Below are positions 6,310 through 11,106 of a stretch of 35,965 bases of DNA, piece by piece. Made by a program: the position numbers and the translations under genes. How positions within the stretch are numbered: position 1 is the first letter of the stretch; every line of letters begins with the position of its first letter. The notes under the pieces were generated by a model, which ran no database searches, was not told the origin of the DNA, and worked only from the letters and a program-made list of their open reading frames with translations. The stretch is from assembly GCA_000993025.1 (NCBI GenBank), contig LBVJ01000003.1:1-35965 (forward strand), written 5' to 3'. The DNA comes from Candidatus Woesebacteria bacterium GW2011_GWA1_38_8 (GTDB lineage Bacteria; Patescibacteriota; Microgenomatia; UBA8517).

Positions 6310-6330
6310 ATTACTCACCCCCTTTAGGGA

Positions 6331-6441
6331 ACTAAAAAACCTCTCGTGATGAGAGGTTGTATCTTTAATTTATTTACTTTTAGTGATCTATTTAACCCAT
6401 GAGTTCTCTCATCACGTTAAGTCAGTCCTGCTATGAGGACC
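6331..6441 (-). promoter_or_regulatory. Candidate attenuator leader with terminator and antiterminator
   Basis: On the minus strand a terminator hairpin AACCTCTC/GAGAGGTT (6338-6358, loop ATCAC) is followed by a T run just before the Shine-Dalgarno sequence of the 61-residue gene. About 50 bases upstream lies CGTGATGAGAG (6406-6416), exactly complementary over 11 bases to the terminator's 5' arm plus loop (6345-6355). The same upstream segment can instead fold locally as UUAAC...AUGAG-AGAA-CUCAU...GUUAA. A further hairpin GGTCCT/AGGACT (about 6424-6441) precedes it. These are the parts of a switch with terminator, antiterminator and anti-antiterminator states. I do not recognise a known riboswitch class. 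Confidence 0.65.
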
Positions 6442-6489: not shown

Positions 6490-7131
6490 TTATCCCGCAG
6501 ATCTAGTCAAGTAATGATCGGCGGAAAGTAAGAATTTACTTCCATGCTTTTTATATTTGGACCAATAATTCTTTTTTTCAGCTCTTTTGTTGGCTGTGCC
6601 CATCCAAAGCGTTGCGTCCTCGACCTTGCTTCTGAAGGACCTGATAAATTCGACGATCCTTTCAAAGAAAAATACATGATAGACCCCGGGTTCTGCTCCT
6701 GAGACTTGCATTGCAGCCACAGAGATTTCCTTAGAAAGGTTTTGGGTTGACTGTGCCAGAAGCAACACTTCATCTGTTAACACTTTTAACTGCATCCGAA
6801 GCTCGTTTGTTCTTTTTTGGATAAGCACTCTTTCTTCCTGAAAAAGTCTTCTTTCAAAGGCAACCTGTGTTATAAGTTTATTGTTTTCCTCGTTCTTTTT
6901 TTTCAATTGAGGATTAAATTCGGCGGTAGTTCCTGGATAAAGCTCTCCCGATTGACCTCTGGTTGATTGAGGGCCGAAAAGCTGATCCATAAAATCCTGC
7001 GGCATTTTTGCAAAAAGGTCCTGTTTTAAAGAGTCTGCAGCAGATGAGCCTATGTCCTTAAATGTCTCGACGACATTGTTTGACTTTTGACCACGACTCT
7101 TACCTTGATTTTTATTCCCTAGATTTTTCAT
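6490..7131 (-). CDS. Conserved hypothetical protein with central coiled coil
   Basis: 213 residues with no signal peptide or membrane segment. The N-terminus is low complexity and basic (NLGNKNQGKSRGQKSNN). A segment with FAKMPQDFMDQLFGP follows (about 42-56). Residues 75-135 form a likely coiled coil (KKKNEENNKLITQVAFERRLFQEE and following). The C-terminal part, with YHVFFFERIVEFIRSFRSKVEDATLW, looks folded. I recall this layout from Microgenomates genomes (possibly DUF5660), but cannot verify the family. A -10-like TATTAT lies five bases before the ATG, suggesting a leaderless mRNA. Confidence 0.75.
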   Translation of the reverse strand: MKNLGNKNQGKSRGQKSNNVVETFKDIGSSAADSLKQDLFAKMPQDFMDQLFGPQSTRGQSGELYPGTTAEFNPQLKKKNEENNKLITQVAFERRLFQEERVLIQKRTNELRMQLKVLTDEVLLLAQSTQNLSKEISVAAMQVSGAEPGVYHVFFFERIVEFIRSFRSKVEDATLWMGTANKRAEKKNYWSKYKKHGSKFLLSADHYLTRSAG

Positions 7132-9897: not shown

Positions 9898-10002
9898 TTA
9901 GAGTATCTTGAGTGCGGGTAAGGTTCTAGCCTGATGATCCGCCGGCAACCCCGATAAATTCCTTTCGGATGGTGCCAAATCTAGCTTACAAGAGAAAGAT
10001 AC
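9898..10002 (+). promoter_or_regulatory. SAM-I-clan riboswitch of metK
   Basis: Helix P1 is GTATCTT (9903-9909) with AAGATAC (9996-10002). Inside are the conserved parts of the SAM-I/SAM-IV clan: a kink-turn-like arm with CTGATGATCC, the core CCGGCAACC (about 9942-9950), a P3 hairpin CCGA/TCGG, and GGTGCCAAAT. CTAG in the P2 loop can pair with CTAG after P3 as the pseudoknot. SAM binding would stabilise P1 and so free the 5' arm of the terminator that follows. Motif and position before the SAM synthetase gene agree; the exact subclass is uncertain because P4 is short or missing. Confidence 0.9.
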
Positions 10003-10013
10003 AAGGAAATTTC

Positions 10014-10044: not shown

Positions 10045-11106
10045 ATGAAAAACCTGAAATATGAGACATATACCGTCGAGAGCGTAACCTCGGGACATCC
10101 CGATAAGATTTGCGATCAGGTGTCGGATGCAATATTGGACGCATGTTTAATTCAGGATCCAAAGAGCCGTGTAGCAATGGAATGTATGGGTGCGCACGGC
10201 GCATTTTATATCGGAGGGGAATTAACAACCAGTGCTGACATTAATCCGGTAAAAATTGCGAAAAATGTATATAACCAAATTGGTTACACTGATAAACTAA
10301 AAGTAACAACAAATATTGTTAGACAAAGCGCCGATATTTCACAGGGGGTCGATACCGGCGGGGCTGGTGATCAGGGAATCATGTACGGGTTTGCCACAGA
10401 TGAAACAGAAAGCTATTTACCCTTGGGAGTATATTTGGTGCACAGGTTGACAAAGGGCTTGGAGGATCTGAGAAGAACGGGGGAAATTAAATGGCTTCGG
10501 CCGGATGGCAAGGCGCAGGTTACAATAAATGGAAATAATGTTACTGAAGTACTGGTTTCCTGTCAGCACAGTGAAGAAGTCGAAAGTGGTGAAATTGAAA
10601 GTACACTGACAAAACTTTTAATAGATCCGTTAATCAACAAGTATGGCGACAATTATGGAATATTGGTTAATCCAACAGGAAGATTTGTAAACGGCGGTTT
10701 TTATGCAGACACAGGTTTAACCGGAAGGAAGATAATGGTCGATTCATACGGCGGCATATATCCCCACGGCGGCGGAGCGTTTTCAGGAAAAGATCCAACT
10801 AAGGTCGATAGATCGGGAGCATATATGGCACGATATGCAGCCAAAAATATGGTTTATAAGGGTTTGGGAAAAAGATGTTTGGTAGCCGTTTCCTATGCAA
10901 TCGGAAAAGCCGATCCATTAATGATTTATGCACTTAATGAGAAAGATGAGGATCTGTCCGAATATGCAAGAAAGCATTTCGATTTCCGCCCCCTTTCCAT
11001 AATTGAAGAGTTAAATCTAAGACAACCGATATACAGAGACACCGCTTCGTACGGACACTTCGGTCGTGATGGGTTCCCGTGGGAAAAATTGGAAGAAGGG
11101 GTTTAA
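10045..11106 (+). CDS. metK: S-adenosylmethionine synthetase
   Basis: Makes SAM from methionine and ATP in the cytoplasm. Signature segments appear in order: GHPDKICDQ (about 17-25), GAHGAFYIGGE, GDQGIMYGFATDE, and the glycine-rich GGAFSGKDPTKVDRSGAY. The C-terminus (YGHFGRDGFPWEKLE) is the usual one, so the gene is complete although 353 residues is shorter than the common 380-400. The start at 10045 is needed to keep the conserved N-terminus. It follows the terminator T run with no space for a Shine-Dalgarno sequence; an AAGGA lies about 37 bases upstream, too far unless the hairpin brings it close. SAM-dependent methyltransferases elsewhere in the window are possible users of the product. 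Confidence 0.97.
   Translation: MKNLKYETYTVESVTSGHPDKICDQVSDAILDACLIQDPKSRVAMECMGAHGAFYIGGELTTSADINPVKIAKNVYNQIGYTDKLKVTTNIVRQSADISQGVDTGGAGDQGIMYGFATDETESYLPLGVYLVHRLTKGLEDLRRTGEIKWLRPDGKAQVTINGNNVTEVLVSCQHSEEVESGEIESTLTKLLIDPLINKYGDNYGILVNPTGRFVNGGFYADTGLTGRKIMVDSYGGIYPHGGGAFSGKDPTKVDRSGAYMARYAAKNMVYKGLGKRCLVAVSYAIGKADPLMIYALNEKDEDLSEYARKHFDFRPLSIIEELNLRQPIYRDTASYGHFGRDGFPWEKLEEGV

Follow-up and report, generated by a model that had tools for sequence, protein, structure and literature searches.

The element upstream of the gene for a 61-aa protein, on the minus strand of the window (the whole stretch of 35,965 nt analyzed here, positions 1–35,965 of contig LBVJ01000003.1 from Candidatus Woesebacteria bacterium GW2011_GWA1_38_8), is very probably a ribosome-mediated (leader-peptide) transcription attenuator. 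Most likely, the translation speed of an Ile/Leu-rich peptide decides whether the 61-aa gene is transcribed. The RNA-folding and peptide-content steps of this mechanism are supported by comparison with related leaders; translation, the start site, and a starvation response in the window's organism are steps that we infer. CPR bacteria have genomes of about 1 Mb, are mostly uncultured, and possess few recognized regulators, so little is known of their gene regulation. Leader-peptide attenuation is already known as a mechanism, and its breadth in the CPR is the new part. The features of the window are collected in Table 1.

Table 1. Positions of the attenuator parts and of neighboring features in the window
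Feature	Position	Strand	Description and basis
DUF5660 gene	6490-7131	minus	213 aa; directly upstream; Pfam PF18904, E=4.6e-31
Candidate promoter	6510-6483	minus	TTGACT-N16-TAACGT; 8/12, weak; overlaps DUF5660 end
Leader peptide ORF	6473-6417	minus	MYTLSPIIITEVLIAGLT, then stop; 18 codons; Ile4 Leu3 Thr3; no Shine-Dalgarno
Segment 1	6461-6451	minus	UCUC.CAUCAU; 5′ arm within leader ORF; partner of segment 3 unless covered by ribosome; MFE structure
Apical hairpin	6441-6424	minus	GGUCCU..AGGACU within leader ORF; MFE structure; CCUC..GAGG equivalents in relatives
Segment 3 (switch segment)	6416-6406	minus	CGUGAUGAGAG; immediately 3′ of leader stop; off state with segment 1, on state with segment 4
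Segment 4	6355-6345	minus	CUCUCAUCACG; terminator 5′ arm plus loop; antiterminator partner of segment 3
Intrinsic terminator	6358-6334	minus	AACCUCUC-AUCAC-GAGAGGUU and U-run; consensus scan match at 6358-6338
Shine-Dalgarno of 61-codon gene	6325-6314	minus	AAAGGGGGUGAG; strong; BLASTN match to G063 (L007) extends through region
Regulated gene, 61-aa protein	6309-6124	minus	61 codons; ORF; no Pfam match
Candidate promoter of tRNA gene	6101-6073	minus	TTGTAA-N17-TAGAAT; promoter scan
tRNA gene	6028-5955	minus	anticodon GAC (Val) by eye; Rfam tRNA, 62.8 bits; downstream of 61-aa gene, same strand
IS200/REP-type transposase-like gene	5837-5169	minus	Y1_Tnp, E=2.3e-6
SAM riboswitch	9900-10005	plus	RF00162, 52.6 bits
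S-adenosylmethionine synthase-like ORF	10045-11106	plus	directly 3′ of SAM riboswitch

Two exclusive folds of the leader

Read directly on the minus strand, segments 3 and 4 are complementary at 11/11 positions. Segment 4 takes in the greater part of the 5′ arm of the terminator, together with the loop AUCAC and the initial base of the 3′ arm. The terminator and the antiterminator are mutually exclusive in the window copy. Folding gave segment 1 as the alternative partner of segment 3, with the apical hairpin enclosed. An earlier sequence-only reading had proposed that an 11-base segment pairs with the terminator 5′ arm plus loop or folds into its own hairpin, and both the complementarity and the folding agree with this. 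That reading had also placed a strong Shine-Dalgarno sequence right after the terminator, where AAAGGGGGUGAG indeed precedes the 61-codon ORF. Its range, 6310-6441, does hold an attenuator but cuts off the essential 5′ part, as the element starts at ~6473.

The leader was more stable than expected (MFE z = -4.1), and equal stability was reached by 0/200 shuffles. When the growing transcript was folded, the 1:3 hairpin appeared once segment 3 was made and left the terminator free. Blocking of the 5′ side led to loss of the terminator with a switch score of 0.93, and none of 300 dinucleotide shuffles performed as well.

Simulated ribosome stalling

Stalls were simulated by blocking everything up to 10 nt past the A-site codon, with equilibrium folding. 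The in silico probability of the terminator in the window copy was 0.99 without a ribosome, 0.64–0.86 for stalls at codons 2–6, 0.05–0.10 at I7–I8, 0.27–0.46 at codons 9–12, and 0.06 at L13, and it was again 0.99 from codon 17 through the stop codon. With footprints between 10 and 16 nt, this dip stayed in place to within about one codon, and 0/300 shuffled upstream regions switched as well as the window. As the stall-sensitive codons are Ile7-Ile8 and Leu13, the best guess from this model is that the window copy senses Ile limitation or a general branched-chain limitation, with some uncertainty about the amino acid because Thr is also over-represented in the peptide (3/17).

Among the related leaders described below, 20/25 family members switched in silico (1/75 shuffled controls), as did 44/78 other leaders (5/234 controls). 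The remaining 5/25 family leaders did not switch in the equilibrium model. L186 and L216, for example, have convincing peptides, yet they were terminated at all simulated stalls. The model is therefore incomplete, and kinetics must matter for such leaders.

The proposed mechanism is as follows. Translation of the leader peptide would accompany transcription of the leader by RNA polymerase. With charged Ile (and Leu) tRNAs, the ribosome would reach the stop codon, cover or release segment 3, and thus let the terminator form. If translation does not occur, the 1:3 hairpin would leave the terminator free and the 61-aa gene would be off. A ribosome stalled near codons 7–8 or 13 by an uncharged tRNA would cover segment 1, so that segment 3 would pair with segment 4. 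This pairing would take up the terminator 5′ arm and loop, and transcription would continue into the 61-aa gene, whose product may be beneficial in starvation.

Related leaders and covariation of the antiterminator

In a BLASTN search, the window leader matched related leaders of other genera; over the leader, identity to G001:C1, from Candidatus Woesebacteria bacterium GW2011_GWA1_39_21 of the same genus, was 78%. Fourteen leaders were aligned (A1) and used for a covariance model (R1) that contains the antiterminator pairs only. Members of R1 were present in 27/50 family genomes, 88/374 class genomes (E≤5e-4), and 14/380 phylum genomes (E≤1e-3); the wider-phylum matches near E=1e-4, of which a part was checked, contain some likely false positives (L049, L058). 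Within the window's own genome, other matches appeared only from E=0.08 upward and looked like coding sequence or noise, and the leader had no match in phage records. A MAFFT alignment that covered the promoter region (A2) was too poor to serve as the basis of a second model.

In the 14-leader alignment, the antiterminator 3:4 was paired in 94% of cells (slid controls, 33–71%), with 3 pairs changed on both sides, and its covariation score was reached by 0/500 column shuffles. An alignment-free swap test within the family gave -15.2 kcal/mol for pairing with a leader's own terminator arm/loop, compared to -12.4 kcal/mol with those of other members (p<5e-5). The 1:3 helix was paired in 82% of cells (slid controls, 53–67%), which is not above column shuffles (81%). 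The terminator stem was nearly invariant. The exclusive conformations suggested by the sequence-only reading are thus backed by the covariation of the antiterminator and by relatives in many genera.

The Rfam scan, at gathering and permissive thresholds, returned only chance-level matches, such as Phe_leader with 18.9 bits (cut-off 55, E 1.1). The T-box covariance model and the known riboswitch families of Rfam did not match the window leader. The scan works on this genome, because it detected the SAM riboswitch at 9900-10005. The observation that the upstream part matches no known riboswitch therefore holds, with no Rfam family at cut-off. The sequence-only reading would have been abandoned if homologues lacked the leader, if its pairs did not covary, or if Rfam placed it in a known class; homologous leaders exist, the antiterminator covaries, and Rfam assigns no class.

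These results bear on two alternatives. A metabolite riboswitch or T-box, in which the RNA itself would bind a ligand or tRNA and so choose between 1:3 and 3:4, would have the same terminator/antiterminator logic and conserved pairing. We consider it highly improbable, given that neither the window nor 40 related loci matched Rfam, that the conserved parts are the pairing arms, ORF, and promoter, that the alignments show no conserved core of unpaired bases, and that the reading frame is preserved despite in-frame insertions (L032, L036). Autoregulation, or binding of another protein to the leader, would suit the small, charged 61-aa product. It is hardly credible, as the 61-aa protein was found only here and homologous leaders stand before unrelated genes in other genera; this diversity of downstream genes excludes autoregulation by one protein family as the general mechanism.

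A conserved leader ORF and its start

The sensor that the sequence-only reading overlooked is the 18-codon leader ORF, which contains segment 1 and ends with its stop codon just 5′ of the switch segment. In the members generally, segment 1 lies in the 5′ part of a short ORF whose stop codon usually just precedes segment 3; further peptides of this kind are MKINSLIVVSFFLLIEG (L024) and MTIISLILVNFVLFIEG (L027), each followed by a stop codon. The leader frame was open over 15 codons in 24/25 family members, where shuffles expect 11.8 (p=6e-8). Ile made up 16% of the leader residues, compared to 8.5% in the window genes and 4–5% in the other two frames. Two leaders (L032 and L036) carry in-frame insertions within the ORF that keep the reading frame. 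Both insertions have CAAGCTTTGCTTA in common, beside a GC-rich inverted repeat, and look like a small repeat element that enters coding leaders without breaking the frame.

A Shine-Dalgarno-like motif was present in 0/104 leaders. A promoter with at least 10/12 consensus bases, 7–13 nt 5′ of the ATG, was found in 19/25 family leaders (0.9% of shuffled controls), and 16 of the 25 had at least 11/12 matches. Promoter figures outside the family are biased upward, because the leader ATG was there picked partly by promoter score. With no Shine-Dalgarno and a promoter just 5′ of the ATG, the leader mRNAs of most relatives are probably leaderless or nearly so, as judged from start sites predicted from promoters.

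The candidate promoter in the window, with 8/12 matches, is at background level and absent from the output of the consensus promoter scan, though its position fits the relatives (7–13 nt from the -10 end to the ATG). The stop codon of the DUF5660 gene lies 16 nt 5′ of the leader start codon, and ribosomes finishing DUF5660 could reinitiate at the leader ORF. The same reinitiation may apply to other copies directly behind DUF5660 (L035, L043, and L050).

Peptide composition follows the downstream gene

The genes downstream of the class members were identified with NCBIfam. Leaders of leuA (7 leaders) contained 35–47% Leu (MRQNLLLNLDFLLLGEI, MKNLFLLNLFLLLPGEF, MRNLTLSSLDLLLQRRFLMV, MNKRILLLNLVLLLKE, MCKFTLLNLNELLLLGEAF, MTGISLLNPDLSLLLKV, and MNSKSLLLLNLSLLLNKGPLMVWEKRS), those of ilvB and ilvD 27–37% Ile+Val (MIKNNLIILSVIVLAIVQGYSWEVIKARIKK, MTARHGNEINILSIIVLVIGQGKMREA, and MINSSFSIIVLNLIVPLWGLKVERT), and those of ilvE and ileS 25–33% Ile (MKSISLIQIVNLIVNGA and MKIFSLIQIVNLIIEA). 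The three leaders of a serB-serA fusion had 23–26% Ser (MNPRVDVNNNFSPSNSSLSMSAGRIVDS, MNPRVDFYNNYSPCSSSSPISGRLMNSG, and MNSRVDVNNNFSPSSSSDLNFGRFMVL), and the two CysK/CBS leaders each had CCC (MIKGIYLTVNENCCCTSR and MNINIIKSCCCTSLDRGGIF). Single leaders of pheA (MSKQSFQTFYFWFYFTDLKFGGIVLFKK, 26% Phe), thrS (MQIRQTNNTTNNTSDMCWGMR, 20% Thr), and asnB (MKQFKNNNTNNNNWLRREMF, 37% Asn) followed the same pattern. For ileS (L028) and thrS (L194), at least one small ORF lies between the terminator and the synthetase gene. A simple screen upstream of the 30 best asnB genes revealed no Asn-rich leader, which leaves the Asn case with one example.

Over 20 leaders in 8 gene groups, the mean cognate fraction was 0.31, compared to 0.125 ± 0.026 after relabelling (0/100,000), a figure that is descriptive because leaders within one gene group are not mutually independent. 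The argument is the agreement between peptide and gene across the eight groups. A peptide content that, in relatives, goes with the amino acid of the gene behind it, together with a conserved ORF free of Shine-Dalgarno sequences, points to a translating ribosome as the sensor. The sensors proposed earlier, namely a new RNA switch, a protein-binding attenuator, or autoregulation by the 61-aa protein, are not borne out by these leaders.

The leader peptide could instead sense a ribosome-binding compound or act through a nascent-chain effect (cf. erm, vga, and tna leaders) rather than respond to uncharged tRNA. Many of the leader peptides are short and hydrophobic, and DUF6025, GCS2-like, and unannotated downstream genes are not classical biosynthetic ones. 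We regard such sensing as very unlikely, since the composition tracks the downstream gene's amino acid in the eight groups and resistance-type genes did not turn up behind the leaders. A branched-chain bias is not obvious in several of the family leaders that lie behind DUF5660 (MNLMSHYLFRALPAWKRI and similar), which counts against the attenuator as read here.

Some individual loci are worth describing. At L061 (G305:C3:22629-22709), an asparagine synthase gene lies behind the Asn-rich leader MKQFKNNNTNNNNWLRREMF with its terminator, and a second Asn-rich short ORF, MTWFNNNMANNNSPP followed by a stop codon, begins immediately after that terminator; these are possibly two attenuators in tandem. 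At L177, L191, and L198, leader peptides with Ser and Asn runs precede the fused phosphoserine phosphatase/phosphoglycerate dehydrogenase gene (SerB-SerA), and an aminotransferase-like ORF comes after this gene. Elsewhere in the class, two more leader types recur in other families before unannotated proteins: MKRSFLFQ.I..NLLMEA-stop (L159 and L160) and M...VLF.IIL.F..L.-stop (L169, L185, L197, and L200).

Comparison with known attenuators

At the sequence level, the family has the defining features of classical amino-acid attenuators. The trp, leu, ilv, phe, and his leaders of Proteobacteria (Rfam Phe_leader RF01859 and similar) likewise combine an ORF with regulatory codons, an exclusive antiterminator/terminator pair, and an intrinsic terminator, and the leuA, ilv, and pheA peptides found here are of the same kind. 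The window family differs from them in sequence, in the lack of a Shine-Dalgarno sequence, in the promoter ~10 nt upstream in most copies, in the compact three-segment layout, and in its additional occurrence before Ser, Cys, Asn, Thr, and unannotated genes.

In the trpL attenuator of Sinorhizobium meliloti, the transcript begins at the ATG of the leader ORF (PMC7298713). This leaderless arrangement is the one proposed for most relatives here. The trpL system is Trp-specific and alphaproteobacterial, with no sequence relation shown to the window family. In Actinobacteria, runs of Ile/Val/Leu or Cys codons, similar to those found here, occur before ilvB, cys/cbs, and leuA (PMC1262725). The actinobacterial cys leaders lack terminators and leuA has a LEU pseudoknot (PMC1262725), whereas every leader here has an intrinsic terminator for which a segment where the leader ORF ends is the pairing partner. 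In Staphylococcus aureus, the branched-chain amino acid genes (ilv) are reported to be under a leucine-rich attenuator peptide (PMC5794164), in a Firmicutes system that, unlike the window family, is combined with CodY. Among open-access papers, no report of leader-peptide attenuation in Patescibacteria/CPR was found.

The occurrence of attenuators before Leu, Ile, Ser, Cys, Phe, and Asn genes shows that this mechanism is widespread in a poorly known group; about one in four sampled class genomes contains this compact RNA family, for which Rfam has no entry. As a prediction, the leader peptide names the sensed amino acid and thereby suggests when uncharacterized downstream genes switch on. How leaderless ORFs are translated could be tested on the many natural examples of leaderless attenuation in this family. 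For the Microgenomates (CPR), the chances appear evenly balanced that leaderless attenuators of this common design are a major control of amino-acid genes, including those for Ser, Cys, Asn, and Thr, and of unannotated genes, and, jointly with this, that the 61-aa protein is the product of a new starvation-induced gene whose leader is translated leaderless or by reinitiation from DUF5660.

The regulated gene and its locus

No homologue of the 61-aa protein was found in 56 relatives, and a search of 300 class genomes gave only two weak matches (E=0.002 and 0.03). In our reading of the sequences, the better of these resembles a RelE-type toxin. The upstream DUF5660 protein is 74% identical to that of GW2011_GWA1_39_21 (G001), and DUF5660 is carried by 46/50 family genomes. 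Many family attenuators are immediate downstream neighbors of DUF5660 or lie no more than a few kb away. In G001, an M20 peptidase gene follows DUF5660 immediately, with no attenuator between them, and the M20 gene had no match above the cut-off in the window's genome.

The window attenuator could therefore be a relic, once functional, that has lost its M20 dipeptidase gene and now precedes a 61-aa ORF that is non-functional or a very young gene. Such a history would fit the arrangement in G001, the weak window promoter, and the lack of homologues of the 61-aa protein. We consider it unlikely, because every part of the switch is intact, from the start and stop codons to the complementarity of the loop and the strong Shine-Dalgarno sequence, because the window copy switches in silico as well as its relatives, and because its leader is so similar to G001:C1. 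A functional leader-peptide attenuator is the reading that we prefer.

The genes behind DUF5660 vary by genus (an M20 peptidase preceded by variable small ORFs, GCS2-like and DUF6025 proteins, and large proteins lacking annotation) and are often under a leader-peptide attenuator; the region looks like a variable locus of amino-acid or peptide metabolism. In the window, the transposase-like gene and the tRNA gene occupy the place of the relatives' M20 peptidase, and it is possible that a transposase-like insertion replaced this peptidase in the window's genome. Elsewhere in the window, the SAM riboswitch at 9900-10005 adds another RNA-based control to this small genome.
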